This document shows positions 5,382 to 14,121 of a stretch of DNA of 23,685 nt, in pieces. The notes under the pieces were generated by a model. The model was not told the origin of the DNA and did not search any database. It saw nothing but the letters and a program-made list of their open reading frames with translations. Source of the DNA: a virus; IMG/VR virus record IMGVR_UViG_3300027759_000426, positions 1-23,685 of that record. One strand, given 5' to 3'. Position numbers and translations under genes: made by a program. Each line of letters opens with the position of its first letter. The stretch's first letter is position 1.

Positions 5382-6156
5382 GCAGACAAATACTTGGCAC
5401 GCAACGAATACAAACACATATGCATATGCAAGTATAAGAGATACATATACGTATGCATCAAGTATTGGGTATACATGTAATATCAGTATTTAATTGTATG
5501 CGGGTTCAGCATAAGCCTGGTGTCTATTGTTTTAAATGGGTATCCTATTTTTAGTCCGATACCGCCTAATAAACAGATTCGTGGTTCCGCATGTAACATG
5601 TATTCAGTGTCTAGTATTGAGGTATAGGCATGGTTACCTTTCTTACGGCATCTGCGTATTGTTTACGCGGGGCATAGACTCTTTATCAGACATCCGGATG
5701 TATCTAAAGCCCATACACGCCTAGATGTTCTTAAACACGAACTAAGAGGGTGAAGAGGGAGGCCATAGGATCAGGCTATTTTTAGACGAAATGGCGTTAT
5801 TTTTAGACGAATTCGCCAGGCCTATTTTTAGACGATCGGAATCCGGGTTTTAGACGCAAGCTATTTTTAATGCAACATGTCCTAGTTTTAGACCAATGTG
5901 CGCTGTATATATAGTATATGTGCATGGGTTATTTTTAGACGAAATGGTTCTATTTTTAGTCCAATATGTGGCTTGGGTTCTATTTTTAGGCTATTTTTAG
6001 TGCATATGCCGTTATTTTTAGATGAATTTATCCGATTCGGTTTTAGAAACAACCTCATTTTTAGCACCTTAAGTGCAGGATCGATTCGGTTTACTAGCTA
6101 TACAGAGACCCTATTTTTAGAATGATTGGGCATCTAGGTTTTAGTCTATTTTTAGG
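5382..6156. other. Gene-free stretch with palindromes and TATTTTTAG repeats
   Basis: No convincing gene is seen on either strand; the two short + frames at 5536 and 5898 translate to low-quality, repeat-driven peptides. Palindromes include CATATGCATATG (5417-5428), ATACGTAT (5447-5454) and ACATCCGGATGT (5690-5701). GGTATC (5539-5544) and GATACC (5558-5563) flank the first TATTTTTAG. The rest is occupied by the repeat cluster described separately. Composition is less A-rich than the surrounding genes, so the DNA does not look like decayed coding sequence. A role as replication origin or protein-binding array is the best guess. Confidence 0.5.
5546..6155 (+). repeat. Cluster of TATTTTTAG(ACGAA) repeats
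   Basis: Eleven exact copies of TATTTTTAG start at 5546, 5777, 5798, 5823, 5930, 5951, 5981, 5992, 6013, 6112 and 6147. Weaker versions lie near 5847, 5862, 5883, 6039, 6056 and 6137. All have the same orientation, many continue as ACGAA, and start-to-start distances of 21 (four times) and 11 bases suggest placement on one face of the helix. Resembles iterons or multi-site protein binding arrays in layout; the binding protein is not known. Confidence 0.75.
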
Positions 6157-6209
6157 TTCAACCGTTGCTTTAAGTAGATATCGAAATATTTCTACGGCTG
6201 CGGTTGGAA
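6157..6209 (+). other. Long hairpin after the repeat cluster
   Basis: TTCAACCG (6157-6164) pairs with CGGTTGGAA (6201-6209, one bulged G), enclosing an inner stem GTAGATAT / ATTTCTAC around a short loop. The structure directly follows the last TATTTTTAG copy and precedes the small peptide genes. No T-run follows. It may be a leader structure, a processing site, or an extrudable element of an origin. Confidence 0.4.
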
Positions 6210-6237
6210 TAAGCATTTATTTATCATATTATATGTT

Positions 6238-6330
6238 ATGAGAAGAATGGACTTTATAATGGTAGCAATCTTAACGTTGGTTGTAGCTTTATTAGTAGCT
6301 GCCTATAATTTGATAACAGCCTTACGATGA
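6238..6330 (+). CDS. Tiny membrane peptide, 30 aa
   Basis: MRRMDFIMVAILTLVVALLV followed by AAYNLITALR: a positive N-terminus and one long hydrophobic helix (about residues 6-27). Its stop overlaps the next start (ATGA), pairing it with a second one-helix peptide. Such pairs could act on the host envelope or stabilise a membrane complex, but nothing in the sequence specifies this. Confidence 0.5.
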   Translation: MRRMDFIMVAILTLVVALLVAAYNLITALR

Positions 6331-6431
6331 CTAGCATACGAGCGATACATTTATTGATAGCGGCCGCTGTATTATATACAGTAGTGTCACTAGCATTGAT
6401 ATGGATATTGATTGACACATTGATCGGATAG
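6327..6431 (+). CDS. Tiny membrane peptide, 34 aa
   Basis: MTSIRAIHLLIAAAVLYTVV and a continuing hydrophobic stretch to LIWILIDTLIG, so a single membrane helix with almost no soluble part. It overlaps the preceding peptide gene by 4 bases and is followed immediately by the GC-rich structured RNA region, which may be its 3' untranslated region. Function unknown. Confidence 0.5.
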   Translation: MTSIRAIHLLIAAAVLYTVVSLALIWILIDTLIG

Positions 6432-6575
6432 TCGACGGGGTCCGGGAACAACGCGCTCGAAAGACGCACCCGGCGGATCGGCATTGGATCGCGATATACA
6501 AGGCAGCAGGTTACTCTCTTATCCTAGCTGTCACGACGAACCCGGGTTTCTCTCTTACTCCCGGGTTTTCTTTAT
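6432..6575 (+). ncRNA. Candidate structured small RNA ending in an intrinsic terminator
   Basis: This stretch is much richer in G+C than its surroundings and folds into three hairpins. First, CCGGG / CCCGG encloses an inner stem with a GAAA tetraloop (about 6440-6478). Second, CAGCAGG (6504-6510) pairs with CCTAGCTG (6523-6530, one bulge) around the loop TTACTCTCTTAT. Third is the terminator AACCCGGG / CCCGGGTT, whose loop is TTTCTCTCTTACT. Both of the last two loops carry CTCTCTTA, complementary to the AAGAGAG motif before many downstream start codons. No separate promoter was seen, so it may be a 3' UTR-derived RNA of the small membrane peptides. Confidence 0.5.
6539..6575 (+). terminator. 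Intrinsic terminator with CTCTCTTA loop
   Basis: AACCCGGG (6539-6546) pairs perfectly with CCCGGGTT (6560-6567), followed by TTCTTTATT. It closes the transcript carrying the two membrane peptides and the structured RNA. The 13-base loop is pyrimidine-rich and repeats the CTCTCTTA string of the preceding hairpin. Confidence 0.8.
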
Positions 6576-6606
6576 TCACATGTTATTCACAATTTGCTGT
6601 GTATAA
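6572..6606. promoter_or_regulatory. Three DnaA-box matches
   Basis: TTATTCACA occurs at 6572-6580 and 6583-6591, and TGTGTATAA (TTATACACA on the other strand) at 6598-6606. All match the bacterial DnaA consensus TTATNCACA exactly. They sit between the terminator and the first repeated promoter. TGTGAATAA recurs upstream of two other promoters (8822-8830 and 11492-11500). A host DnaA role in replication start or in promoter control is possible. Confidence 0.5.
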
Positions 6607-6642
6607 CTTGGCAAACATTTTTCAAACATTTCAGCAAAAAGA

Positions 6643-6674
6643 TTAGGATCGCATTGATTTATTCCTTATCTTTA
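6643..6674 (+). promoter_or_regulatory. Repeated promoter, copy 1
   Basis: TTAGGATC at 6643 and TATCTTTA at 6667-6674, with the same 24-base start-to-start spacing as the other 12 copies. The right half of the palindrome is degenerate here. The upstream element is CAAACATTTCAGCAAAAA. An imperfect leader hairpin AATTAGG / CCTTAATT (6684-6705) follows, then the GAGAGAG motif before gene 6727. Confidence 0.75.
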
Positions 6675-6726
6675 TATTATAGGAATTAGGGAGAGACCTT
6701 AATTTAAAATTTAAAAGAGAGAGATT

Positions 6727-7113
6727 ATGAAAAAAGAAGCAAAAGTAGAATTTGGAATTGAGATTGTTAAGCCATGGAGCACGGCAATGTATGATCACAA
6801 TGAGGCATTGGCAGATGTTGTTAAGGCAAAGGTACACGCATTATGGGTTGCGGCTTATGATGCAGCGGAAGCAGAGTTTGTTGATGAAGATGATTTAGGC
6901 AATGAATTTGCAGATATGCAGTGGGATGGCGCTAGCAGTGAAATGGTTGAGATTCAGAAAGCCATTACATATTATGGATATTCAAACCAGAGCATTGGAG
7001 AGGTTGCAGAGGAAGTTGGTACCACATTAGAAGATATGCCATTATACCAATTAAAAGAATTAGTAGAGGAATTAGACATAAAATTAGATACCGGGTTTGT
7101 TGGCTTTAATTAG
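6727..7113 (+). CDS. Hypothetical acidic protein, 128 aa
   Basis: First gene of the promoter-rich block; the start is fixed by the AAAAGAGAGAGATT motif directly before ATG. The 128-residue protein starts MKKEAKVEFGIEIVKPWSTA and is acidic and helical, with segments such as VVKAKVHALWVAAYDAAEAE and a C-terminal helix YQLKELVEELDIKLDTG. No signal peptide or membrane segment. No recognised family; position and regulation suggest an early, host-interacting protein. A tRNA-like RNA follows 12 bases after its stop. Confidence 0.7.
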   Translation: MKKEAKVEFGIEIVKPWSTAMYDHNEALADVVKAKVHALWVAAYDAAEAEFVDEDDLGNEFADMQWDGASSEMVEIQKAITYYGYSNQSIGEVAEEVGTTLEDMPLYQLKELVEELDIKLDTGFVGFN

Positions 7114-7125
7114 CCAGCAACCTCG

Positions 7126-7244
7126 AGTCGGGTGGCGGAATGGTAAACGCTATGGTAAGTAACTGAATCCTAAAGGCAGCAACCTACTGGCAGTAAGTGA
7201 ACCCATACCAGACGTGGATACAGGTTCGAGTCCTGTCCCGACTT
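7126..7244 (+). tRNA. tRNA-like gene with extra sequence in the anticodon region
   Basis: The ends are those of a tRNA: acceptor stem AGTCGGG (7126-7132) with CCCGACT (7237-7243), a Leu-type D arm TGGCGGAATGGTAAACGC, and a T arm ACAGG / CCTGT around TTCGAGT. CCA-GACG-TGG (7208-7217) could be a class II variable arm. Between D arm and variable arm lie about 55 bases instead of 17. ATGG (7152-7155) and CCAT (7203-7206) could be an anticodon stem enclosing 47 bases. Within these, ACCTA / TAAGT (one mismatch) frames the 7-base loop CTGGCAG, which would give anticodon GGC. Amino acid identity is therefore unclear; CCA is not encoded. It may be an intron-bearing, permuted-looking or defunct tRNA. 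Confidence 0.55.
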
Positions 7245-7340
7245 CAAAACAAAGTTAAAGGGAAGTTAACAAAATAAACCGAGGTGAGTCTGCCATAATA
7301 GAATAGAAATAGTCGGTTATAATTCCCGTAACTTTGTTTG
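7245..7340 (+). ncRNA. Long imperfect hairpin after the tRNA-like gene
   Basis: CAAAACAAAGTTAAAGGGAA (7245-7264) pairs with TTCCCGTAACTTTGTTTG (7323-7340) with little interruption, and an inner TAAACCGA / TCGGTTATA adds a second stem, leaving a central loop of about 30 bases. It could end or protect the tRNA-like transcript, or be an independent structured RNA. The arms also resemble the CAAACAAAGTTG element found upstream of the repeated promoters. Confidence 0.45.
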
Positions 7341-7358
7341 AAAAAAGTTTCGAAAAGA

Positions 7359-7390
7359 TTAGGATCCTATCATTATTATACTTATCTTTA
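7359..7390 (+). promoter_or_regulatory. Repeated promoter, copy 2
   Basis: TTAGGATCCTAT at 7359-7370 and TATCTTTA at 7383-7390. No gene starts behind it before the next promoter, 86 bases further on. Between the two lies a 19-base inverted repeat TTTTTTCAAGTTGAAAAAA (7403-7421). The pair may act as tandem promoters for gene 7496. Confidence 0.75.
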
Positions 7391-7444
7391 TATGACGGGC
7401 TGTTTTTTCAAGTTGAAAAAAGTTCAAACAAAGTTGCAAAAAAA

Positions 7445-7476
7445 TTAGGATCCTAACTTTATTATACTTATCTTTA
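7445..7476 (+). promoter_or_regulatory. Repeated promoter, copy 3
   Basis: TTAGGATCCTAA at 7445-7456 and TATCTTTA at 7469-7476, preceded by CAAACAAAGTTGCAAAAAAA. The leader is very short: gene 7496 starts 20 bases downstream after AAAAGAGAGAT, so there is no room for the leader hairpin seen at other copies. Confidence 0.8.
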
Positions 7477-7495
7477 TTAAAATTAAAAGAGAGAT

Positions 7496-7690
7496 ATGAT
7501 ACAACAACAAATTGAAGCTATTGAAGCAAGATTGGAATTCCTAAAGACGGATACCACAAAATGGGTAAGTGCATTTGCTCAGCCCAACGGATGCACTCCG
7601 TATAACCATGGCAATTACTTTCGCAAGTTGGAGCGTAATAGGCTTAAAACAAAGTTGAAAAGTTTGCAAAAAAAGTTGCTAAAAAATTAG
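7496..7690 (+). CDS. Hypothetical basic protein, 64 aa
   Basis: Starts MIQQQIEAIEARLEFLKTDT after AAAAGAGAGAT. The N-terminal third is a coiled-coil-like helix; the middle has a Trp, Asn and Gly-rich piece (AFAQPNGCTPYNHGNYFRKL), and the end is lysine-rich (TKLKSLQKKLLKN). The lysine-rich tail is encoded by the upstream element of the next promoter, and the TAG stop lies inside that promoter's TTAGG, so tail sequence may reflect promoter selection. No family recognised. Confidence 0.65.
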   Translation: MIQQQIEAIEARLEFLKTDTTKWVSAFAQPNGCTPYNHGNYFRKLERNRLKTKLKSLQKKLLKN

Positions 7691-7718
7691 GATCCTAACT
7701 TTATAAACCTTATCTTTA
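7687..7718 (+). promoter_or_regulatory. Repeated promoter, copy 4
   Basis: TTAGGATCCTAA at 7687-7698 and TATCTTTA at 7711-7718. The upstream AAAGTTGCTAAAAAA lies inside gene 7496-7690, whose stop codon it supplies. The leader contains the perfect palindrome GGGAATATTCCC (7733-7744), then GAGAGAG before ATG 7771. Confidence 0.8.
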
Positions 7719-7770
7719 AGTATTAATAAGAAGGGAATATTCCCACAACATGTTATAAATTGAGAGAGTT

Positions 7771-8166
7771 ATGAAAAAAGTAAGTTTAGCAGAACAGTTG
7801 AATGCATTTGCGTCAGGAAGAATAATTGACAGCGAAGGAGATCAAAATGATTGTTTTAACTTTTATGATTGGTTTTGCAAAGATTCAGCATTGGAGCGCA
7901 AAGCAAACATATTATTCCCTAAGGTAAAAAAGTTTATTGAATCGACTCAAGTTGACATCTTAGATACATATGTGTTTTTTAAAAATAATTGTCCGTCGCG
8001 AGGCCCGTTGTATGACGATTTCCGCATATGTGATGAGAACGGAGTTTTATTCACAGTAATCCCTAAATGTGGCCATTCCGGCAAAGCTGAAATATGGGGA
8101 AAGAATGATTCCGGCAAATTTGAATGCTTAAAGCAAGCCGAAACATTTTCGAAACTTTTCTCCTAA
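7771..8166 (+). CDS. Hypothetical protein, 131 aa
   Basis: Starts MKKVSLAEQLNAFASGRIID directly after TTGAGAGAGTT. A 131-residue soluble protein with several Cys residues (NDCFNFYDWFCKDS, NNCPSR, FRICDENG, PKCGHSG, FECLKQ), which could hint at metal binding, although no regular zinc-finger spacing is visible. It has its own promoter and a long leader, so it is probably made early. The stop (TAA) lies 5 bases before the next promoter. No recognised family. Confidence 0.7.
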   Translation: MKKVSLAEQLNAFASGRIIDSEGDQNDCFNFYDWFCKDSALERKANILFPKVKKFIESTQVDILDTYVFFKNNCPSRGPLYDDFRICDENGVLFTVIPKCGHSGKAEIWGKNDSGKFECLKQAETFSKLFS

Positions 8167-8170
8167 AAAA

Positions 8171-8202
8171 TTAGGATCCTAACTTTATATACCTTATCTT
8201 TA
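8171..8202 (+). promoter_or_regulatory. Repeated promoter, copy 5
   Basis: TTAGGATCCTAA at 8171-8182 and TATCTTTA at 8195-8202, immediately after gene 7771. The leader hairpin is GGGA / TCCC (8216-8229) with an ATG in its loop region, followed by CCGACCTAAAAAAAGAGAG before ATG 8249. Confidence 0.8.
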
Positions 8203-8248
8203 TTAAAATTAAAAAGGGAGATGTTTCCCGACCTAAAAAAAGAGAGTT

Positions 8249-8518
8249 ATGACACACAAGGAATTTAAGTTGACAGTCAAAAATGAAATCCTGGAAGATG
8301 CAGGCTATGAAAGAAAAGCAGTGCATTACCGAATAGGCGACGTAGTTACAGTGGATGAGGTAACATTTGATACGTTGCAATCCGGAGGCACCATTCAGCG
8401 ATACACACAAGAAGGCGCGTTTGCATTTGACAAGTATGACTTTGAGAATGAGGTTGCAGTTACAACCATCACCGTCGATTACAGTATACGTAAATTAGGT
8501 CAAAGAAAACAAAAATAA
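8249..8518 (+). CDS. Hypothetical protein, 89 aa
   Basis: Starts MTHKEFKLTVKNEILEDAGY after AAAAAAAGAGAGTT. An 89-residue, probably beta-rich domain (HYRIGDVVTVDEVTFDTLQS, then FENEVAVTTITVDYSIRKLG) with a basic tail GQRKQK. No membrane segment. It is followed after 5 bases by a 34-residue gene with which it probably shares an mRNA. Function unknown. Confidence 0.65.
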   Translation: MTHKEFKLTVKNEILEDAGYERKAVHYRIGDVVTVDEVTFDTLQSGGTIQRYTQEGAFAFDKYDFENEVAVTTITVDYSIRKLGQRKQK

Positions 8519-8523
8519 GAGAT

Positions 8524-8628
8524 ATGAAAAACGTTAAAGTTTATATTCAGGAATTGATTGACGAAGGCATTATTGCCAAAGAAGTAGCAGACCAGTTAAT
8601 ATTTTTAATTAAAAAAATCGAAAAATGA
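8524..8628 (+). CDS. Small helical protein, 34 aa
   Basis: MKNVKVYIQELIDEGIIAKE followed by VADQLIFLIKKIEK: an amphipathic helical peptide with alternating charges, read after AAGAGAT. Its stop overlaps the next ATG by 4 bases (ATGA), so the two are coupled. A gene this short would be missed by length filters; spacing, ribosome-binding motif and composition support it. Confidence 0.55.
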   Translation: MKNVKVYIQELIDEGIIAKEVADQLIFLIKKIEK

Positions 8629-8813
8629 ACGCATTATCAACAACACAGATCAGAGCAGAAATTGTAGAATTAATTAATGCCGGCACGTTAAATGTACCCA
8701 AAATCATTAAATTCTTTAAAGACTTTCGACCGGGAGCAAATCCAACAACGGTTAAGACAGAAGCAAAAGAATTGGTAGCTGAGGTAAAAGCAATAATTAA
8801 GCGAGGTTATTAA
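8625..8813 (+). CDS. Hypothetical protein, 62 aa
   Basis: MNALSTTQIRAEIVELINAG, then TLNVPKIIKFFKDFRPGANP and a C-terminal helix KTEAKELVAEVKAIIKRGY. A small three-helix protein, overlapping the previous gene by 4 bases. The helices and PxxVKTEAK-type turn look like a compact DNA- or protein-binding bundle, but no known family is recognised. Confidence 0.6.
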   Translation: MNALSTTQIRAEIVELINAGTLNVPKIIKFFKDFRPGANPTTVKTEAKELVAEVKAIIKRGY

Positions 8814-8856
8814 AACCAAATTGTGAATAACTTTTTCAAACAAAGTTGCTAAAAGA

Positions 8857-8888
8857 TTAGGTTTCTAACATTATATTCCTTATCTTTA
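8857..8888 (+). promoter_or_regulatory. Repeated promoter, copy 6 (altered palindrome)
   Basis: TTAGGTTTCTAA at 8857-8868 keeps the outer TTAG/CTAA but loses the centre; TATCTTTA is at 8881-8888. A DnaA-box match TGTGAATAA (8822-8830) lies upstream. The leader hairpin is GGGAA-ATGG-TTCCC (8901-8914). Confidence 0.75.
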
Positions 8889-8932
8889 ATTAAATAAAAA
8901 GGGAAATGGTTCCCGACCTAAAAAAAGAGAGA

Positions 8933-9118
8933 ATGGCAAACATCAAAAAGAATTCCGCATTTTTCCAGCAAGATGCATGTATGGGTAAATTGAGCGCAGA
9001 TGCTCGTAAGCCACAAGAACTTAATGCAATTGTAAGAGCCGGGATGCGCGAAGCAGAACGTCAGCGCATTTATAGAGAAGCTCGTGCTTTATTGGAAATA
9101 CCTCGAATCGTAAGATGA
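8933..9118 (+). CDS. Hypothetical basic protein, 61 aa
   Basis: I start at ATG 8933 (MANIKKNSAFFQQDACMGKL), which follows AAAAAAAGAGAGA; an in-frame ATG at 8906 sits in the loop of the leader hairpin and is less likely. The second half is an Arg/Ala/Glu-rich helix (AIVRAGMREAERQRIYREAR). Its end overlaps the next small membrane peptide gene by 4 bases. No family recognised. Confidence 0.6.
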   Translation: MANIKKNSAFFQQDACMGKLSADARKPQELNAIVRAGMREAERQRIYREARALLEIPRIVR

Positions 9119-9228
9119 TATGTGTTATCCTGCAACTAGTCTTAGCAGCTGCAATACTTGCGGTAGTAGTTGTATCATTAATAATTGCAATTGTAACAAT
9201 CGTAGAATCCCGTAACGGAGAAATTTAA
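9115..9228 (+). CDS. Small membrane peptide, 37 aa
   Basis: MICVILQLVLAAAILAVVVV continuing SLIIAIVTIVESRNGEI: one long hydrophobic helix (residues 2-30) and a short charged C-terminus. ATGA overlap with the gene upstream. It resembles the other single-helix peptides in the window; function unknown. Confidence 0.5.
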   Translation: MICVILQLVLAAAILAVVVVSLIIAIVTIVESRNGEI

Positions 9229-9243
9229 TATTAAAAAGAGAGC

Positions 9244-9432
9244 ATGGAAAAGACATCACAACAACAATTTACATTAGCAACAATACAGTATGTTGAAGAG
9301 CTAATAGCTCAGGGTCGATTTGGCGCGGGACTAGAAGAAGAAGTGGAACTCCAAGTTCGGGATGTAGTCGATATGCTATTGTATCAAGATAAAAAAAGTT
9401 TAAAAAAAGTTACCAAAAGATTAGGATCCTAA
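9244..9432 (+). CDS. Hypothetical protein, 62 aa
   Basis: Starts MEKTSQQQFTLATIQYVEEL after AAAAAGAGAGC. A helical domain (YVEELIAQGRFGAGLEEEVE, then LQVRDVVDMLLYQDKK) followed by a lysine-rich tail SLKKVTKRLGS. The tail is encoded by the upstream element of the next promoter, and the TAA stop forms the end of its TTAGGATCCTAA palindrome, the second such gene-promoter overlap in this block. Confidence 0.6.
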   Translation: MEKTSQQQFTLATIQYVEELIAQGRFGAGLEEEVELQVRDVVDMLLYQDKKSLKKVTKRLGS

Positions 9433-9452
9433 CTTTATAAACCTTATCTTTA
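9421..9452 (+). promoter_or_regulatory. Repeated promoter, copy 7 (drives the sigma factor)
   Basis: TTAGGATCCTAA at 9421-9432 (overlapping the end of gene 9244) and TATCTTTA at 9445-9452. The leader has only a weak TATTAAATTAATA palindrome and CAAAGAGAGTT before ATG 9489. Because the gene behind it encodes a sigma factor, the promoter could be self-activated. Confidence 0.8.
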
Positions 9453-9488
9453 AGTATTAAATTAATAGTTATAAAACCAAAGAGAGTT

Positions 9489-10232
9489 ATGAGAAAAAAG
9501 ATTCATGTAGGAAATGGTGCAATTGTTACCGACGTTGCAAGCACAAGACGTTATGTGCAGGAAATTAAAAAATCAGGATCATTGCTTACCCGGGAACAAG
9601 AAAAGGAAATAGCAATAAAGTCCAGCTCCGGAGATATTCCTTCGCGCAACCGCCTAGTAGAAAGCAATTTAAGATTTGCGATCCAGGTAGCCCGACAATA
9701 TCAGGGAATGGGTTTAGAACTTGAGGATCTGATAGGATTTGCAAATGTAGGATTGTTTGAAGCTGCAGAGCGGTTTGATGCAGAACGCAATGTCAAATTC
9801 ATTACCTTTGCAGTATGGTATATCAGAGCCGAGATACAAAAGGCTTTGAATGATTTATCCCGTACGGTGCGTATCCCATCGCATAGAACCGCTACCGAAG
9901 AGTATGGTACCAAAAGCATATCAACACCAGTAGGCGATTCAGAGAATGCAGAAACATATGCGGATCGATTCTTAGCAGCAGATCCTGTCAAAAGCAACAG
10001 AGAGCAGGCCGATATGATGTTTGATATCAATAGGACCTTATCGCAATTGAAGCCGAGACAAGAAGAAGCATTGCGTCGCAATTATGGGCTAGGATTTGAA
10101 TATGCACAAAGCATGGAACAAATTGGCGAGGAGATGGGAATCACAAATGAGCGTGCACGACAGTTGGTTCGCCAGGCAGAGATCGATTTAGCTAAGGTAC
10201 CCGGCATAAAATTGTTGGAACAATACCTGTAA
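9489..10232 (+). CDS. RNA polymerase sigma-70 family factor
   Basis: A sigma subunit directs host RNA polymerase to promoters. At 247 residues it is shorter than a housekeeping RpoD. Residues about 20-53 resemble region 1.2 (RRYVQEIKKSG...LLTREQEKEIA). Residues 54-130 are region 2, with NLRFAIQVARQYQGMGLELE, the DNA-melting stretch ERFDAERNVKFITFAVWYIR and SRTVRIP. Region 3 is short or altered (131-175). Residues 185-235 are region 4 with the helix-turn-helix EQIGEEMGITNERARQLVRQ. The shape resembles short primary-like sigma factors of Bacteroidota. It lies behind repeated promoter 7 and amid twelve others, so it is the obvious candidate to read them (inference). Start fixed by AAAGAGAGTT before ATG. 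Confidence 0.93.
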   Translation: MRKKIHVGNGAIVTDVASTRRYVQEIKKSGSLLTREQEKEIAIKSSSGDIPSRNRLVESNLRFAIQVARQYQGMGLELEDLIGFANVGLFEAAERFDAERNVKFITFAVWYIRAEIQKALNDLSRTVRIPSHRTATEEYGTKSISTPVGDSENAETYADRFLAADPVKSNREQADMMFDINRTLSQLKPRQEEALRRNYGLGFEYAQSMEQIGEEMGITNERARQLVRQAEIDLAKVPGIKLLEQYL

Positions 10233-10259
10233 CATTTTCAAAACATTTCAGCAAAAAGA

Positions 10260-10291
10260 TTAGGATCCTAACTTTATATACCTTATCTTTA
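10260..10291 (+). promoter_or_regulatory. Repeated promoter, copy 8
   Basis: TTAGGATCCTAA at 10260-10271 and TATCTTTA at 10284-10291, with the ACATTTCAGCAAAAAGA version of the upstream element also seen at copies 1 and 10. An imperfect leader hairpin TTAGG / CCTTAA (10302-10319) precedes AAAAAAGAGAGAAT and ATG 10337. Confidence 0.8.
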
Positions 10292-10336
10292 TATAAGGAA
10301 GTTAGGGAATGCACCTTAATTTAAAAAAGAGAGAAT

Positions 10337-10408
10337 ATGTTAGGAACATGTGTGTATGTAAGTTTATTGTTTAGTGTAGTATTAATCCTTAAATTAATAA
10401 GCAAATGA
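10337..10408 (+). CDS. Tiny membrane peptide, 23 aa
   Basis: MLGTCVYVSLLFSVVLILKL followed by ISK, a single hydrophobic helix with a basic end. It is the first gene behind promoter copy 8, is preceded by AAAAAAGAGAGAAT, and overlaps the next gene by ATGA. The ribosome-binding motif at the usual distance makes it more credible than its length suggests. Function unknown. Confidence 0.5.
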   Translation: MLGTCVYVSLLFSVVLILKLISK

Positions 10409-10533
10409 ATCAGAAAGGAATGTCCCCAAAAGAATTAGCGGCACTAATTGAAGCTAACAACAAATTTGCAGCAATAGTGTGTGTAGCGTGTCTAGCGATA
10501 GATGCATGTATTTATGTTGAACTAAATAGTTGA
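10405..10533 (+). CDS. Small membrane protein, 42 aa
   Basis: MNQKGMSPKELAALIEANNK is a short soluble helix; residues 21-40 (FAAIVCVACLAIDACIYVEL) form a hydrophobic, cysteine-rich segment. Overlaps the previous peptide gene by 4 bases and ends 4 bases before the next ATG, within TTGAGAGT. Likely membrane-anchored; function unknown. Confidence 0.5.
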   Translation: MNQKGMSPKELAALIEANNKFAAIVCVACLAIDACIYVELNS

Positions 10534-10537
10534 GAGT

Positions 10538-10684
10538 ATGAAACCAGAATTGAAAGCCCTAGAAGCAAAAGTGAAAGCCTTAAGACAAGCAATGGAACTA
10601 TTTGATATATTCCAGCAAGACGATGAGGTAGGATCGGCATTGGCCGAAGTAGAAGCAGAGTTAGACAAGTTTAAATTCAAATAA
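10538..10684 (+). CDS. Small coiled-coil protein, 48 aa
   Basis: MKPELKALEAKVKALRQAME continues as LFDIFQQDDEVGSALAEVEA and ends ELDKFKFK. Heptad-like Leu/Ala spacing suggests a dimeric coiled coil. The ribosome-binding motif TGAGAGT overlaps the stop of the preceding gene. Part of a four-gene transcript behind promoter copy 8. Function unknown. Confidence 0.55.
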   Translation: MKPELKALEAKVKALRQAMELFDIFQQDDEVGSALAEVEAELDKFKFK

Positions 10685-10692
10685 AAAAGACC

Positions 10693-10875
10693 ATGAAAAA
10701 ATTTGATCGTTATCAAGCAAATCTTAAATTAGTAGATGACCGAGTTATTAGCTATGCGACTCATGTCGCAACCGTCGACGGTGATACCTTAAGGATATTA
10801 GGTACCTGGAGTCAGACAACTACCAAGCACGTCAATTATGTTGCTGCTCAATTAGGCTTAAAAAAAGTTTATTAA
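10693..10875 (+). CDS. Hypothetical protein, 60 aa
   Basis: MKKFDRYQANLKLVDDRVIS then YATHVATVDGDTLRILGTWS and a C-terminal helix HVNYVAAQLGLKKVY. A small beta-hairpin plus helix domain is likely. It follows AAAAAAGACC rather than the exact GAGAG motif and closes the transcript from promoter copy 8. No recognised family. Confidence 0.6.
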   Translation: MKKFDRYQANLKLVDDRVISYATHVATVDGDTLRILGTWSQTTTKHVNYVAAQLGLKKVY

Positions 10876-10899
10876 AATGCAAACAAAGTTGGTAAAAAA

Positions 10900-10931
10900 T
10901 TAGGATCCTAACTTTATATACCTTATCTTTA
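10900..10931 (+). promoter_or_regulatory. Repeated promoter, copy 9
   Basis: TTAGGATCCTAA at 10900-10911 and TATCTTTA at 10924-10931, with CAAACAAAGTTGG upstream. The leader hairpin ATTAGGGA / TCTCTAAT around ATGG (10941-10960) is the longest of the set; then TTGAGAGAAT precedes ATG 10976. Confidence 0.8.
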
Positions 10932-10975
10932 TTATAAGCAATTAGGGAATGGTCTCTAATTTAAATTGAGAGAAT

Positions 10976-11185
10976 ATGAAAGGATTAGAGTTATTAGTAA
11001 TAGGGGAAGAGTTCAAAGTTCAGACTGCATATGCATCTTATACGAACTTAAAGTTTATGGGATTCATTAATGAGAATGATGGTATTGTATTAGCATCATT
11101 TAGTTCCACAAAGTCGTTCCAACCGAGCCGATTCTTTGACATCACAGTGACAAGCAACCAAGTAATAAGTTCAAAACAAAGTTGA
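10976..11185 (+). CDS. Hypothetical protein, 69 aa
   Basis: MKGLELLVIGEEFKVQTAYA, then SYTNLKFMGFINENDGIVLA and SFSSTKSFQPSRFFDITVTS: alternating hydrophobic residues suggest a small beta-barrel. Sole gene between promoter copies 9 and 10; its last codons and stop fall in the CAAAGTTG element of copy 10. No recognised family. Confidence 0.6.
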   Translation: MKGLELLVIGEEFKVQTAYASYTNLKFMGFINENDGIVLASFSSTKSFQPSRFFDITVTSNQVISSKQS

Positions 11186-11203
11186 AACATTTCAGCAAAA
11201 AGA

Positions 11204-11235
11204 TTAGGATCCTAACTTTATTATCCTTATCTTTA
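11204..11235 (+). promoter_or_regulatory. Repeated promoter, copy 10
   Basis: TTAGGATCCTAA at 11204-11215 and TATCTTTA at 11228-11235, with the ACATTTCAGCAAAAAGA upstream version. The leader has the perfect palindrome GGGAATATTCCC (11251-11262), identical to that of copy 4, then AAAAAGAGAGACA before ATG 11285. Confidence 0.8.
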
Positions 11236-11284
11236 TATTAATAATAAAAAGGGAATATTCCCAAAACAATTAAAAAGAGAGACA

Positions 11285-11488
11285 ATGACTAGAAATCAAA
11301 TTATCAAAGCAGCGTGCAAACTTAGCGCCAAATCATTCTTAGAGTTAATGGACCACAATGGCGTTTTCACAACGATCCTGGACCAGGACAATATATTCGA
11401 TGCCAATGACGGATGCCTCAATGTTGATGTAGAAGGAATGCCGGAAGGCGAATCTTTATTGTTCATCAATGGAGATTTTGCAGATTAA
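11285..11488 (+). CDS. Hypothetical acidic protein, 67 aa
   Basis: MTRNQIIKAACKLSAKSFLE, then LMDHNGVFTTILDQDNIFDA and an acidic end NDGCLNVDVEGMPEGESLLF plus INGDFAD. Single gene between promoter copies 10 and 11, starting after AAAAAGAGAGACA. Acidic, DNA-mimic-like charge is notable in the C-terminal half but the function is unknown. Confidence 0.6.
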   Translation: MTRNQIIKAACKLSAKSFLELMDHNGVFTTILDQDNIFDANDGCLNVDVEGMPEGESLLFINGDFAD

Positions 11489-11526
11489 AATTGTGAATAA
11501 CTTTTTCAAACAAAGTTACCAAAAAA

Positions 11527-11558
11527 TTAGGATCCTATCATTATAATCCTTATCTTTA
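11527..11558 (+). promoter_or_regulatory. Repeated promoter, copy 11
   Basis: TTAGGATCCTAT at 11527-11538 and TATCTTTA at 11551-11558. A DnaA-box match TGTGAATAA (11492-11500) and the following ACTTTTTCAAACAAAGTT are shared with copy 6. The leader hairpin GGCA-ATGT-TGCC (11571-11582) replaces GGGA/TCCC by a compensated pair. Confidence 0.8.
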
Positions 11559-11601
11559 ATTAAATAAAAAGGCAATGTTGCCGAACCTAAAAAAAGAGAG
11601 A

Positions 11602-11994
11602 ATGAAAAAAGAACAATTGATTGCGCAGTTAGAGGGAGTAAAAGTATTATCAACGCAAGTTGACATTGACAAAGTAATTGCACTTATCCAGCAATTAGAA
11701 TCGGAGAAGAAAGGCGGGTTGACACAAGACTTGGCTGAGGAGATTGCTAGCCGCATTGAAAGCTCATTGGAGCGTAATGCATCCGAGTTGGTTGACTGTG
11801 ATAGTGCAGAATTTGAACTAAACTATGACAACCGAGTTGAATTGAGAGCCGCGGATGTTAATGTGTCAGAAATTATGGATTTTGTTACCGACTGCCTAGA
11901 CGAGTTTGTTAAGGCGCAACAAGATGAAGAATTGATTCAAGCAGTGTTAGCAGCAGATACAAATGAGGCTGACGAAGATGAGTCTGAAGAGTAA
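11602..11994 (+). CDS. Hypothetical acidic protein, 130 aa
   Basis: Start at ATG 11602 (MKKEQLIAQLEGVKVLSTQV), which follows AAAAAAAGAGAGA; the in-frame ATG at 11575 lies in the leader hairpin. The protein is highly acidic, with a coiled-coil-like N-terminus, a middle part EEIASRIESSLERNASELVD, and a tail ADTNEADEDESEE. Acidic helical proteins like this can act as chaperone-like or DNA-mimic proteins, but nothing specific is recognised. A repeated RNA element starts at its stop codon. Confidence 0.65.
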   Translation: MKKEQLIAQLEGVKVLSTQVDIDKVIALIQQLESEKKGGLTQDLAEEIASRIESSLERNASELVDCDSAEFELNYDNRVELRAADVNVSEIMDFVTDCLDEFVKAQQDEELIQAVLAADTNEADEDESEE

Positions 11995-12042
11995 ATCATA
12001 TCTCTCAATATGAGTCCCATGGGTCGGCAGAAGTGTCGGCCC
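11990..12042 (+). promoter_or_regulatory. Repeated post-gene RNA element, copy A
   Basis: The 24 bases at 11990-12013, spanning the stop codon, are identical to 13337-13360. They contain the hairpin TCATAT-CTCTCA-ATATGA. A second hairpin follows, GGGTCGGCA (12021-12029) with TGTCGGCCC (12034-12042) around GAAG. No T-run follows, but TAAAAAAG comes shortly after, as in copy B. It separates this gene from 12066 and could control read-through, RNA processing or stability. Confidence 0.6.
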
Positions 12043-12065
12043 TTACGGACGTAAAAAAGAGACCT

Positions 12066-12281
12066 ATGTTAAAAGACGCAATTGCATTATTAAGCCAGTT
12101 CGGATTAGTTGACGGTAACACATTACCGGACTCGACACCGGGCACACAGTATCAATTCAGAAGCTGCACACCAAACCTAATTGTTCCGGCACCTGGCCAG
12201 AAAACAGTTATTACCGGCCTTTTAAAGGATCACGGGTATGTGGTTAAACCATTAGGTACCATGTTAAAACTTAGCAAATAA
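12066..12281 (+). CDS. Hypothetical protein, 71 aa
   Basis: Start at ATG 12066 (MLKDAIALLSQFGLVDGNTL), after AAAAAAGAGACCT; an upstream in-frame ATG (12033) would overlap the hairpin. A helical N-terminus is followed by PDSTPGTQYQFRSCTPNLIV and KTVITGLLKDHGYVVKPLGT, a compact domain with a helix-turn-helix-like feel at the end, though not a convincing one. It probably shares the transcript of promoter copy 11. Confidence 0.6.
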   Translation: MLKDAIALLSQFGLVDGNTLPDSTPGTQYQFRSCTPNLIVPAPGQKTVITGLLKDHGYVVKPLGTMLKLSK

Positions 12282-12305
12282 AATGCAAACAAAGTTGCTA
12301 AAAGA

Positions 12306-12337
12306 TTAGGATCCTAACATTATAATCCTTATCTTTA
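12306..12337 (+). promoter_or_regulatory. Repeated promoter, copy 12 (drives the AAA+ ATPase)
   Basis: TTAGGATCCTAA at 12306-12317 and TATCTTTA at 12330-12337, with CAAACAAAGTTGCTAAAA upstream. The leader hairpin here is TAATAA-GAG-TTATTA (12346-12360), AT-only, then CTGAGAGAGT before ATG 12391. Confidence 0.8.
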
Positions 12338-12390
12338 AGTATAAGTAATAAGAGTTATTATTTAGTTAAACAATTAAACCCTGAGAGAGT

Positions 12391-13338
12391 ATGATGAATG
12401 TGTTTGAGCCTGTCCGAATTAAAGGCAAATTATTCGGGAAGAATGTTAAGAGTGGCGAGATTGCTGCAAAAGGTCTTATAAGAGATATCCAATTGCGCAA
12501 TGCCGAAAAGAATCGAGAAGTATTGTTTGTAGCCACAAATGGTAGAGTAACCCGAATGCCGGGAGTAGAAGCAGGAGTATCGGTCACACCAGCAGCTCCA
12601 ATCAAATTGTCTTTTATGACAGTCAGAGAGGCACGTGACCCACAAGAAATGTTTACCAACTTAGCAAGATTGACAAAGATGGTAGGCAGAGGTATTCAAC
12701 CGAGCTTAGTAGTTACCGGAGGTGCCGGCACGGGTAAGACTCACCTAGTAAAGCAAACCTTATCAGATATGGGCTTAGAAGAGTCAACCGACTTTGTCCA
12801 CTTTAAAGGCCGAGCCACACCGGCGGGTTTGTTTATTACCCTGTATGAGAATAGTGACAAGATAATTGTGTTGGATGATTGTGATTCAGTGTTTAAAGAC
12901 GATGATGCAGTCAATATACTTAAAGGAGCACTTGACAGCTATGACAGCAGAAAGATTAGTTACATTACCTCAAAGTCGCTTAAGGATACATATGGTGCAG
13001 AGATACCACGTCATTTTGAGTTTACGGGTAGGATCATATTCATTAGCAATATTGACCAAAGCAAATTAGATGAGGCGATACGTAGCAGAAGCTTTGTAGC
13101 CGACATTGATATGACGCAGGATCAAATGTTTACCAGGATCGAGCAATTGATGCCCAATATGGAGACACGCATACCAATTGTAGCAAAGGAGCAAGCATTG
13201 CAATTAATGAAAGAATTGAATGCCGAGTTTAATGGATTAGATGTTAACCTCCGCAGCTTTATTAAAGCAGCACGCATATGTGCAATGGGCTTTGATAATC
13301 CTAAAATGATGATAGCGGAACAAATCATCGAAGCATAG
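12391..13338 (+). CDS. AAA+ ATPase
   Basis: An ATP-driven remodelling enzyme. The 315-residue protein has a 100-residue N-terminal part, then Walker A GGAGTGKTH (110-118), Walker B IIVLDDCDS (158-166), a sensor-1-like IIFISNID (215-222) and the arginines of EAIRSRSF (228-235) that could provide the arginine finger. The C-terminal part has LNAEFNGLDVNLRSFIKAAR and resembles an AAA lid. Phages use such proteins as helicase loaders, clamp-loader-like or recombination factors; the exact role cannot be read from sequence. Its own promoter and the post-gene RNA element give it separate control. ATG 12394 is an alternative start. Confidence 0.85.
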   Translation: MMNVFEPVRIKGKLFGKNVKSGEIAAKGLIRDIQLRNAEKNREVLFVATNGRVTRMPGVEAGVSVTPAAPIKLSFMTVREARDPQEMFTNLARLTKMVGRGIQPSLVVTGGAGTGKTHLVKQTLSDMGLEESTDFVHFKGRATPAGLFITLYENSDKIIVLDDCDSVFKDDDAVNILKGALDSYDSRKISYITSKSLKDTYGAEIPRHFEFTGRIIFISNIDQSKLDEAIRSRSFVADIDMTQDQMFTRIEQLMPNMETRIPIVAKEQALQLMKELNAEFNGLDVNLRSFIKAARICAMGFDNPKMMIAEQIIEA

Positions 13339-13389
13339 TAAATCATATCTCTCAATATGAAGGGACCGGCGTCGAAAGGCGTCGGTTTC
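13337..13389 (+). promoter_or_regulatory. Repeated post-gene RNA element, copy B
   Basis: Identical for 24 bases to copy A, again overlapping a stop codon (TAG here, TAA there), with hairpin TCATAT-CTCTCA-ATATGA at 13343-13360. The second hairpin differs in sequence but is equally strong: 12 pairs from 13362-13373 with 13378-13389 around a GAAA tetraloop. TAAAAAAG follows in both copies. Conservation of shape with different stem sequence points to an RNA structure. Confidence 0.6.
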
Positions 13390-13425
13390 CTACTGTAAAA
13401 AAGTGCAAACAAAGTTGGCGAAAGA

Positions 13426-13457
13426 TTAGGATCCTAACATTATAATCCTTATCTTTA
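13426..13457 (+). promoter_or_regulatory. Repeated promoter, copy 13
   Basis: TTAGGATCCTAA at 13426-13437 and TATCTTTA at 13450-13457, with CAAACAAAGTTGGCGAAAGA upstream. The leader hairpin is AAGGG-AAAGG-CCCTT (13468-13482), then TAATAAGAGAGTAT before ATG 13509; TAAGAGAG is the exact complement of the CTCTCTTA loops. Confidence 0.8.
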
Positions 13458-13508
13458 TATAAGCAGAAAGGGAAAGGCCCTTAGCATAATTAACTAATAA
13501 GAGAGTAT

Positions 13509-13730
13509 ATGACAAAGAAAGAAATGATTGCCGCAATCCAATTAATTGAAGCTCAAGAATTTTTAAAGCTTAAAGAGTATGATAGCGAGTATGGATGGAA
13601 AGACGCATTAACTGACAGAGCTCGTGTCAGATTTGTAGCAGTATCTGACTTGATGGAAACATTGGGTATTAAACCAGACATAAGACTAAAGGAGTCGGAA
13701 CAAGCAATGGCCATAATATTAAACAAGTAA
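13509..13730 (+). CDS. Hypothetical protein, 73 aa
   Basis: MTKKEMIAAIQLIEAQEFLK, then LKEYDSEYGWKDALTDRARV and RFVAVSDLMETLGIKPDIRL, ending in a helix ESEQAMAIILNK. A fully helical small protein, starting after TAAGAGAGTAT behind promoter copy 13. The next gene follows 22 bases later with its own AAAAAAAGAGAGAAC. No recognised family. Confidence 0.65.
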   Translation: MTKKEMIAAIQLIEAQEFLKLKEYDSEYGWKDALTDRARVRFVAVSDLMETLGIKPDIRLKESEQAMAIILNK

Positions 13731-13752
13731 TAACCCTAAAAAAAGAGAGAAC

Positions 13753-14121
13753 ATGACAAGAGACCAAAGAGAAGCTGCAAAGCAAAGATTATGGAATTTA
13801 GAATTAAGATTGAATGGCATCAATGCATTAACAGAGAATATGTCAGACAAAGGTGGTGCAGAGATTGCTAGCATACTTGAGGAGACGGCAGCAGAGATTG
13901 CATCCATTGAAAAGCAGTTAGCAACCAAATGGGAGTTCCTATTTAATTTTATAGGAGGCGGTTGGAACTCGGAGGTAGCATTCACAAAGGAAGATGCAAT
14001 CGAGCAAGCCTTATTCAAATATGGTCATCCCAATACTCAAACCGGTCTTAGAGTAGACGTTGCTTCATTCAGAGTATCGACTCCAACCGATTACAAAAAT
14101 CAAATGTCGACATTCTATTAA
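13753..14121 (+). CDS. Hypothetical protein with coiled coil, 122 aa
   Basis: MTRDQREAAKQRLWNLELRL opens a helical/coiled-coil region (to about residue 60, EIASILEETAAEIASIEKQL). A folded C-terminal part follows (WEFLFNFIGGGWNSEVAFTK, then EDAIEQALFKYGHPNTQTGL). Last gene of the promoter-rich block, ending 27 bases before a strong terminator. No recognised family. Confidence 0.7.
   Translation: MTRDQREAAKQRLWNLELRLNGINALTENMSDKGGAEIASILEETAAEIASIEKQLATKWEFLFNFIGGGWNSEVAFTKEDAIEQALFKYGHPNTQTGLRVDVASFRVSTPTDYKNQMSTFY

Follow-up and report, generated by a model that had tools for sequence, protein, structure and literature searches.

Antisense pairing at a translation start site that blocks 30S binding has been shown for RNAIII of Staphylococcus aureus (PMC2837412) and is supported for NfeR1 of Sinorhizobium meliloti (PMC10746234). 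RNAIII is a structured RNA whose hairpins occlude the ribosome binding sites (RBSs) of several mRNAs (PMC2837412). It also encodes a small peptide. NfeR1 is one of the cuckoo/alpha-r14 small RNAs (sRNAs), in which an identical unpaired antisense motif is carried by several hairpins with very different stems; the motif copies are redundant and act at the initiation region to silence translation (PMC10746234). Phages themselves encode the antisense RNAs c4 (P1 and P7) and sar (P22), which pair near the RBS of a phage mRNA, in the case of c4 probably through sequence held in loops (PMC12197685). The T4 repressor RegA competes with ribosomes on ~30 mRNAs, either at the AUG or immediately 5' of it, and adds this control to the transcription program (PMC3014915).

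We analyzed a 23,685-nucleotide stretch of viral DNA (hereafter the window), which is a 23.7-kb IMG/VR virus record without a near match among named phages. The window contains a locus for which we propose a noncoding RNA (ncRNA) that is, by analogy, a multi-loop start-site antisense RNA, cuckoo-like in architecture and RegA-like in function but made of RNA. The cuckoo/alpha-r14 sRNAs are bacterial (Alphaproteobacteria) and direct CCUCCUCCC against the general Shine-Dalgarno sequence, whereas the phage RNA would direct CUCUCUUA against a private tag on its own clustered genes. One test of kinship, an identical loop motif on several hairpins with divergent stems, is met; the other, a loop CCUCCUCCC against the canonical Shine-Dalgarno sequence, is not, since the loop CUCUCUUA complements AAGAGAG. 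We conclude that the phage ncRNA is not a member of the cuckoo family, being alike in architecture and different in motif, host, and target logic. RNAIII acts on chromosomal targets via their Shine-Dalgarno sequences, and the phage ncRNA, whose window version may also encode a small peptide, has no Rfam match. Both c4 and sar differ in having one target each (ant), in belonging to temperate phages, and in lacking a multi-gene tag. RegA is a protein that recognizes A+U-rich starts, whereas the agent proposed here is an RNA that would read a shared tag by base-pairing; RegA (PF01818) was absent from the clade contigs that we searched, while the T4 positive control was found (E 2.3e-75). Our searches of the open-access literature for phage RNAs of this kind turned up nothing beyond a general review, which is weak evidence of novelty.

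RESULTS

Source phage, relatives, and probable host

With the sigma factor as the query we retrieved 40 related loci, and ~23 related IMG/VR contigs entered the comparisons below; these loci are related, so the counts are not independent events. The ncRNA carriers appear to be a family of uncultured phages from freshwater. The terminase, taken from one relative's contig, is 55% identical to those of Flavobacterium phage immuto and 'Microcystis' phage Mel-JY01, and its next matches are T4-type phages at ~30%. The window itself encodes a DNA ligase, a sigma factor, an AAA ATPase, and a phage tail lysozyme/M23 peptidase.

We regard a Bacteroidota host as likely, though it is not shown, because of two lines of evidence. 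A gene for ribosomal protein bS21 is present in 5 of the 7 clade contigs tested (the two without it are fragments of 68 and 101 kb), as well as in the diverged L048 contig, and the predicted hosts of lake phages encoding bS21 are Bacteroidetes (PMC9723584). The promoter box of Bacteroidota is TAnnTTTG, and TTATCTTTA, the 3' end of the promoters that precede the tagged genes, is close to it. A scan of genome contigs for hosts returned only a 'Helicobacteraceae' MAG with a 66% relative, probably a mis-binned phage contig and so uninformative on the host.

Two tandem hairpins present one invariant loop

On the + strand of the window CTCTCTT has two copies, at 6514 and 6550, which are also the positions of the two copies of CTCTCTTA, one in each of the tandem hairpins H1 and H2 (Table 1). 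H1 is the interrupted, weaker hairpin, with the motif in its apical part; H2 has a stem of 9 pairs (6538-6546/6560-6568) that encloses the loop TTTCTCTCTTACT and is followed by the T-tract. Relatives that reach the region carry one or two CTCTCTT copies, nearly all within hairpin loops at the upstream edge of the block of tagged genes (the regulon). Two loop hairpins occur in the window and in about half of the relatives, and one in the remainder.

Folded by itself, the interval 6432-6580 is no more stable than its shuffles (z = -1.0); support for RNA structure comes from covariation, not from the fold energy of the window RNA. In the 25 hairpins that we listed, the closing pair is always G-C and compensatory substitutions fall at positions 3-9. 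Among the 19 distinct hairpins used for the covariation count, 90.6% of stem cells are paired, 8 of the 9 pairs have changed on both sides, and doubly changed cells number 47 against 16.4 in shuffles, with no shuffle in 500 as high; the signal disappears when the partner is shifted by one column. CTCTCTTA is invariant among 22 aligned hairpins, and some loops outside these 22 end in CTCTTT or CTCTTC. The loop 9-mer CTCTCTCTT is found, on the regulon's strand of five contigs of 100-169 kb, only at the ncRNA; we relied on this count because the pattern TTCTCTCTTA overlooks loops with four CT units, which makes its zeros in clade contigs uninformative. The diverged contigs L047 and L048 keep the promoter and a weaker tag, and the loop hairpins are absent from their usual place.

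These data bear directly on the simplest rival explanation, an ordinary terminator after a micro-ORF operon with a chance likeness to purine-rich RBSs. In its favor, purine-rich starts always have pyrimidine-rich complements, and the fold energy is unremarkable. Against it stand the invariant loop on covarying stems and the uniqueness of the loop on the regulon's strand in long contigs. The comparative data have already largely refuted this explanation, and we consider it all but excluded.

Table 1. Positions of the ncRNA, its promoter, and the features of the adjoining regulon in the window
Feature	Position	Strand	Basis
Promoter-like box of the ncRNA, GGTTGGA-N18-TATTATATG (class B)	6202..6235	+	Comparable position in 23/23 contigs; degenerate in L025 and L043
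Predicted ncRNA (~335 nt), running from the promoter box through the intrinsic terminator	6240..6573	+	Inferred from conserved box and terminator; 5' end approximate
Micro-ORF 1, 27-aa hydrophobic peptide MDFIMVAILTLVVALLVAAYNLITALR	6247..6330	+	ORF in window
Micro-ORF 2, 34-aa hydrophobic peptide, overlapping ORF 1 (ATGA)	6327..6431	+	ORF in window
E1, structured domain of the ncRNA	6431..6482	+	Covariation, 11 distinct sequences
H1, hairpin displaying CTCTCTTA	6502..6532	+	Fold and relatives
H2, hairpin displaying CTCTCTTA, then T-tract: intrinsic terminator and second antisense loop	6538..6573	+	Fold and relatives
Regulon promoters (class A), 13 near-identical 32-nt copies of TTAGGATC...CTTATCTTTA	6643..13457	+	Motif count in window
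Class A promoter starts	6643, 7359, 7445, 7687, 8171, 8857, 9421, 10260, 10900, 11204, 11527, 12306, 13426	+	
Start-site tags, GAGAG at most 5 nt before ATG, 15 genes	6715..13755	+	Motif count in window
Tagged starts	6727, 7496, 7771, 8249, 8933, 9244, 9489, 10337, 10538, 10976, 11285, 11602, 12391, 13509, 13753	+	
Phage sigma factor, tagged regulon member	9489..10232	+	PHROG 351, E 1.3e-41; Sigma70 regions 2 and 4
Second-type antisense element CATATCTCTC, directly past a stop codon (tag and AUG in reverse complement)	11997..12006	+	Kept at this locus in relatives
Second-type antisense element CATATCTCTC, directly past the AAA ATPase gene	13344..13353	+	Kept at this locus in relatives

The complement of the loop marks the start sites of one gene block

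All 11 copies of AAGAGAG on the + strand of the window lie within 6715-13743. Ten end 1-5 nt upstream of the ATG that opens an ORF of 25 aa or more, and the eleventh (10327) sits before a 23-aa ORF starting at 10337; on both strands together the motif has 13 copies, compared with 2.15 expected. The looser form GAGAG-(0-5)-ATG marks 15 starts, all in 6717-13758, and none elsewhere in the window. Variants of the tag occur at two further regulon starts (8524 and 12066), and the regulon genes at 8625, 10405, and 10693 have no tag. The window has few tags of the eight-base form TAAGAGAG (13498). Most read AAAGAGAG or TGAGAG, which usually leaves the final A of the loop without a partner, and most tags pair with 7 loop bases, not 8 or more.

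Relatives repeat this arrangement. At their loci 251 of 299 AAGAGAG copies end 0-9 nt upstream of an ATG ORF (near-identical contigs included), and in contigs of 140-169 kb AAGAGA-(0-4)-ATG is concentrated in the ~10 kb adjoining the ncRNA. Loops and tags are kept together in the clade contigs that reach the region. Five loci (L028, L031, L035, L039, and L042) have tags without loops, but their contigs stop near or before the expected ncRNA position, so they are not counter-evidence. In the outgroups, Flavobacterium phage immuto and 'Microcystis' phage Mel-JY01 (the closest cultured phages by terminase), the tag is unclustered and the motif, where present, lies outside hairpin loops. Mel-JY01 (PP395634) also has, at 124227 (locus L089), a CT-rich sequence, TTCTCTCTTACTCTCTCTCTCTTATAC, that resembles two fused loops without a comparable stem.

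The earlier note, written from the letters of the window without database searches, had described two successive hairpins with the same loop motif, one of them an intrinsic terminator, and this held (H1 and H2). Its claim that the complement precedes most starts between 6.7 and 14.1 kb and is missing elsewhere held as well, with GAGAG-(0-5)-ATG confined to 6.7-13.8 kb and three regulon genes untagged, while its eight-base tag had to be corrected to the usual 7-base pairing. Loops lost in relatives that retain GAGAG would, by its own account, have refuted the idea; the opposite was seen.

That the tag and loop are common to the clade allows a rival reading in which the RNA acts mainly on other phages or on the host, silencing the tagged genes that related phages bring in on superinfection, or host mRNAs whose starts are similar: one phage's RNA should act on another's mRNAs. 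Every phage, however, has its own tagged genes beside the RNA, and we judge this reading very unlikely as the main role.

The tag lies 0-5 nt from the AUG and is not a standard Shine-Dalgarno sequence. Bacteroidia ribosomes do not use Shine-Dalgarno pairing, the 16S tail being held by bS21, bS18, and bS6 (PMC9976891). Given its closeness to the AUG, its departure from the standard sequence, and the indifference of Bacteroidia ribosomes to such pairing, the tag is better explained as a target site than as an ordinary RBS. We think it likely, with the reservation that a Bacteroidota host is only probable, that the tag is an address label.

Other features of the regulon deserve mention. A tRNA-like sequence of ~117 nt (GUCGGG...GGUUCGAGUCCUGUCCCGAC) lies inside it at 7127-7243, for which neither ARAGORN nor Rfam made a call in the window; L040 has Rfam tRNA matches of 99 and 112 nt (9724-9822 and 5868-5979). 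Several regulon leaders carry a short hairpin (e.g., GGGAAAUGGUUCCC or GGGAAUAUUCCC) between promoter and tag, near 8213-8233, 8899-8919, 11250-11264, and 11568-11584, which could conceivably stabilize mRNA 5' ends.

Complementarity singles out the loops at most loci

A first antisense scan was swamped by low-complexity matches; hence, for every 14-nt site on the regulon's strand we counted the start sites to which it is antisense and ranked the sites by this count. The loops are the top site in 15 of 23 loci and tie with the second element described below in two more, hitting 5-22 start sites (22 genes in L027, 19 in L044, and 16 in L032, for example). In the window and four other loci they are outranked by T-rich low-complexity sites. 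Conserved complementarity to the translation start sites of several genes, a criterion for a trans-acting antisense sRNA, is thus met.

In the window, the mean duplex energy of H1 is -9.2 kcal/mol with the regulon starts and -3.7 kcal/mol with those of other genes; the corresponding values for H2 are -9.9 and -3.6 kcal/mol (p about 1e-6). Thermodynamics alone is nevertheless a weak argument, because shuffled loops also bind purine-rich start sites (means of -5.5 and -6.3 kcal/mol, with 2 and 4 of 300 binding as well as the observed loops). TAAGAG tags account for 129 of 283 at loci whose loops end in CUCUUA and for 8 of 54 where they end in CUCUUU or CUCUUC. Base-by-base covariation of loop and tag remains no more than suggestive: the loci are related, the window itself is an exception, and both partners are so conserved that little covariation can be seen.

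Predicted extent of the ncRNA and two promoter classes

All 23 contigs inspected have a box, GGTTGGA-N18-TATTATATA, 190-430 nt 5' of the first loop. This class B box also precedes the DNA ligase gene (1823 in the window, and in relatives too) and is unlike the class A promoters of the regulon. Because the ncRNA shares its box class with the DNA ligase and not with the regulon, the ncRNA and the regulon probably belong to different temporal classes, an inference from sequence; the order, regulon before ncRNA, is our own tentative suggestion. A second criterion for a trans-acting antisense sRNA, its own promoter and intrinsic terminator, is met at the sequence level only.

Between the box and the loop hairpins lies E1, in which 93% of cells are paired and doubly changed cells number 20 against 7.2 in shuffles (0 of 500 as high). 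E1 has no Rfam match. None of the families of Rfam 15, RNAIII and c4 antisense RNA included, matches the window at the gathering threshold, and a permissive threshold applied to 6150-6730 gave only sub-threshold matches (E 1.9 and 2.3).

Micro-ORFs for hydrophobic peptides lie between box and hairpins in the window, L021, L036, L040, L041, and L044. L024 and L027 have no small hydrophobic ORF within 120 nt of the box and have structured sequence without a clear ORF there. Across many but not all relatives (L021, L036, L040, L041, L044, and L048) the 5' part of the ncRNA encodes peptides of 27-64 aa that vary in sequence and retain hydrophobicity. A further conserved element absent from Rfam, E2 (stem, AACCACAAGC, stem, GCUAACACCUC, stem), lies between promoter and hairpins in L024, L025, L026, L027, L032, L040, L041, L044, and L046.

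Directly 5' of the ncRNA promoter, the window has a TATTTTTAGA repeat array (5548-6155) with 12 TTTTTAG on the + strand in one orientation, and such an array is 5' of the ncRNA in every relative read (L025, L026, L027, L029, L032, L037, L040, L043, and L045). Each repeat is similar to TAnnTTTG, the -7 box of Bacteroidota; the array could bind a protein, belong to an origin, or act as a set of decoy promoters. In the diverged clade, a long conserved intergenic stretch lies upstream of the ncRNA promoter (GAGUGGGCAAAGAGUCAGAAAAUCUGAAUUAUAAUUAUUAAGCAUAGUUCUUGGGUUG...; L047 7209-7440 and L048 7763-7960) and might be another structured RNA.

A second antisense element also covers the start codon

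CATATCTCTC is the exact complement of GAGAGATATG, i.e., the tag plus the start codon, and besides its two places in the window regulon it occurs within the ncRNA of L024, L025, L027, L043, and L045. No shuffled version in 300 bound the regulon starts as well. The diverged contigs that lack loop hairpins, L047 and L048, carry CATATCTTTTAATTTT(T)CATATCTCT and a terminator 3' of the sigma gene, and in L047 this sequence matches the contig's own start sites (...TTAAAAGATATG and ...AAGAGATATG). No other case comes as close as L047 to antisense and target having changed together, and this one rests on a single clade. Small conserved hairpins lie directly 3' of the CATATCTCTC elements in the window (12007-12050, GGGUCGGCAGAAGUGUCGGCCC; 13354-13400, ACCGGCGUCGAAAGGCGUCGGU) and at the same loci in relatives.

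The loops could instead be protein-binding sites or part of a specialized terminator, with start-site complementarity as a by-product, and the same pyrimidine-rich loop on both hairpins, one of them a terminator, can be read in this way. However, a hairpin loop and the linear CATATCTCTC, two unlike elements, are both antisense to these start sites, CATATCTCTC extending over the AUG as well, and the tag is missing from the other genes of the window and unclustered in the outgroups. We consider this alternative very unlikely.

DISCUSSION

The hairpins, the conserved loops, the covarying stems, the regulon-confined tag, and the two promoter classes are shown from sequence. From them we infer, as likely, that an antisense RNA acts in trans to keep one class of the phage's own genes from being translated; transcription, base-pairing, repression, and timing are all inferences. 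The earlier note had placed a small RNA at 6432-6575, which held in part, since that interval also contains E1 and the RNA likely starts near 6240. Its separate transcript gains support from the promoter-like box in 23/23 contigs, with transcription unproved, and its proposal of loop-to-RBS regulation is supported, with pairing and the direction of regulation likewise unproved. Its comparison with RNAIII is fair as mechanism, the nearest architecture being that of the alphaproteobacterial cuckoo/alpha-r14 sRNAs.

We propose the following scenario. The locus would produce an ncRNA of ~335 nt with its own promoter, E1 as a middle domain, and two terminal hairpins whose loops present CUCUCUUA. 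These loops would pair with the GAGAG tag right before the AUG of about 15 adjacent genes, and this pairing would block 30S binding and lower translation of the gene class as a block. The CAUAUCUCUC elements after two regulon genes may supply extra antisense sequence to the same start sites. Because its promoter class is that of the DNA ligase and not that of the regulon, the ncRNA likely ends one expression wave as the next class comes on.

An RNA that pairs with the tags might instead activate or stabilize the mRNAs, or act mainly by triggering cleavage by a double-strand RNase. The sequence evidence would be identical, and repression of coa by RNAIII combines a ribosome block with cleavage by RNase III (PMC2837412). 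Pairing within 0-5 nt of the AUG, together with a second element that covers the AUG, favors a block, and we consider activation or cleavage unlikely.

Beyond a translational block, a bolder reading is that the phage has an RNA-only counterpart of RegA, in which a private tag on a gene class, a multi-loop ncRNA, and 3'-UTR antisense elements form a joint switch-off in a host that ignores Shine-Dalgarno sequences, leaving the tag to serve as an address; we could argue this reading as readily against as for.

The phage sRNAs in the review that we consulted act on one target or a few, and T4 RegA, the known repressor that acts on translation of a phage gene class at many targets, is a protein. 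The loop/tag rule is simple and testable, and its sequence signature can guide a search for similar circuits in other phages. If our reading is true, base-pairing would control a whole gene class, and both the address and its reader could be read off the sequence; the setting would be T4-like phages that probably infect Bacteroidota and that mostly encode bS21 as well.
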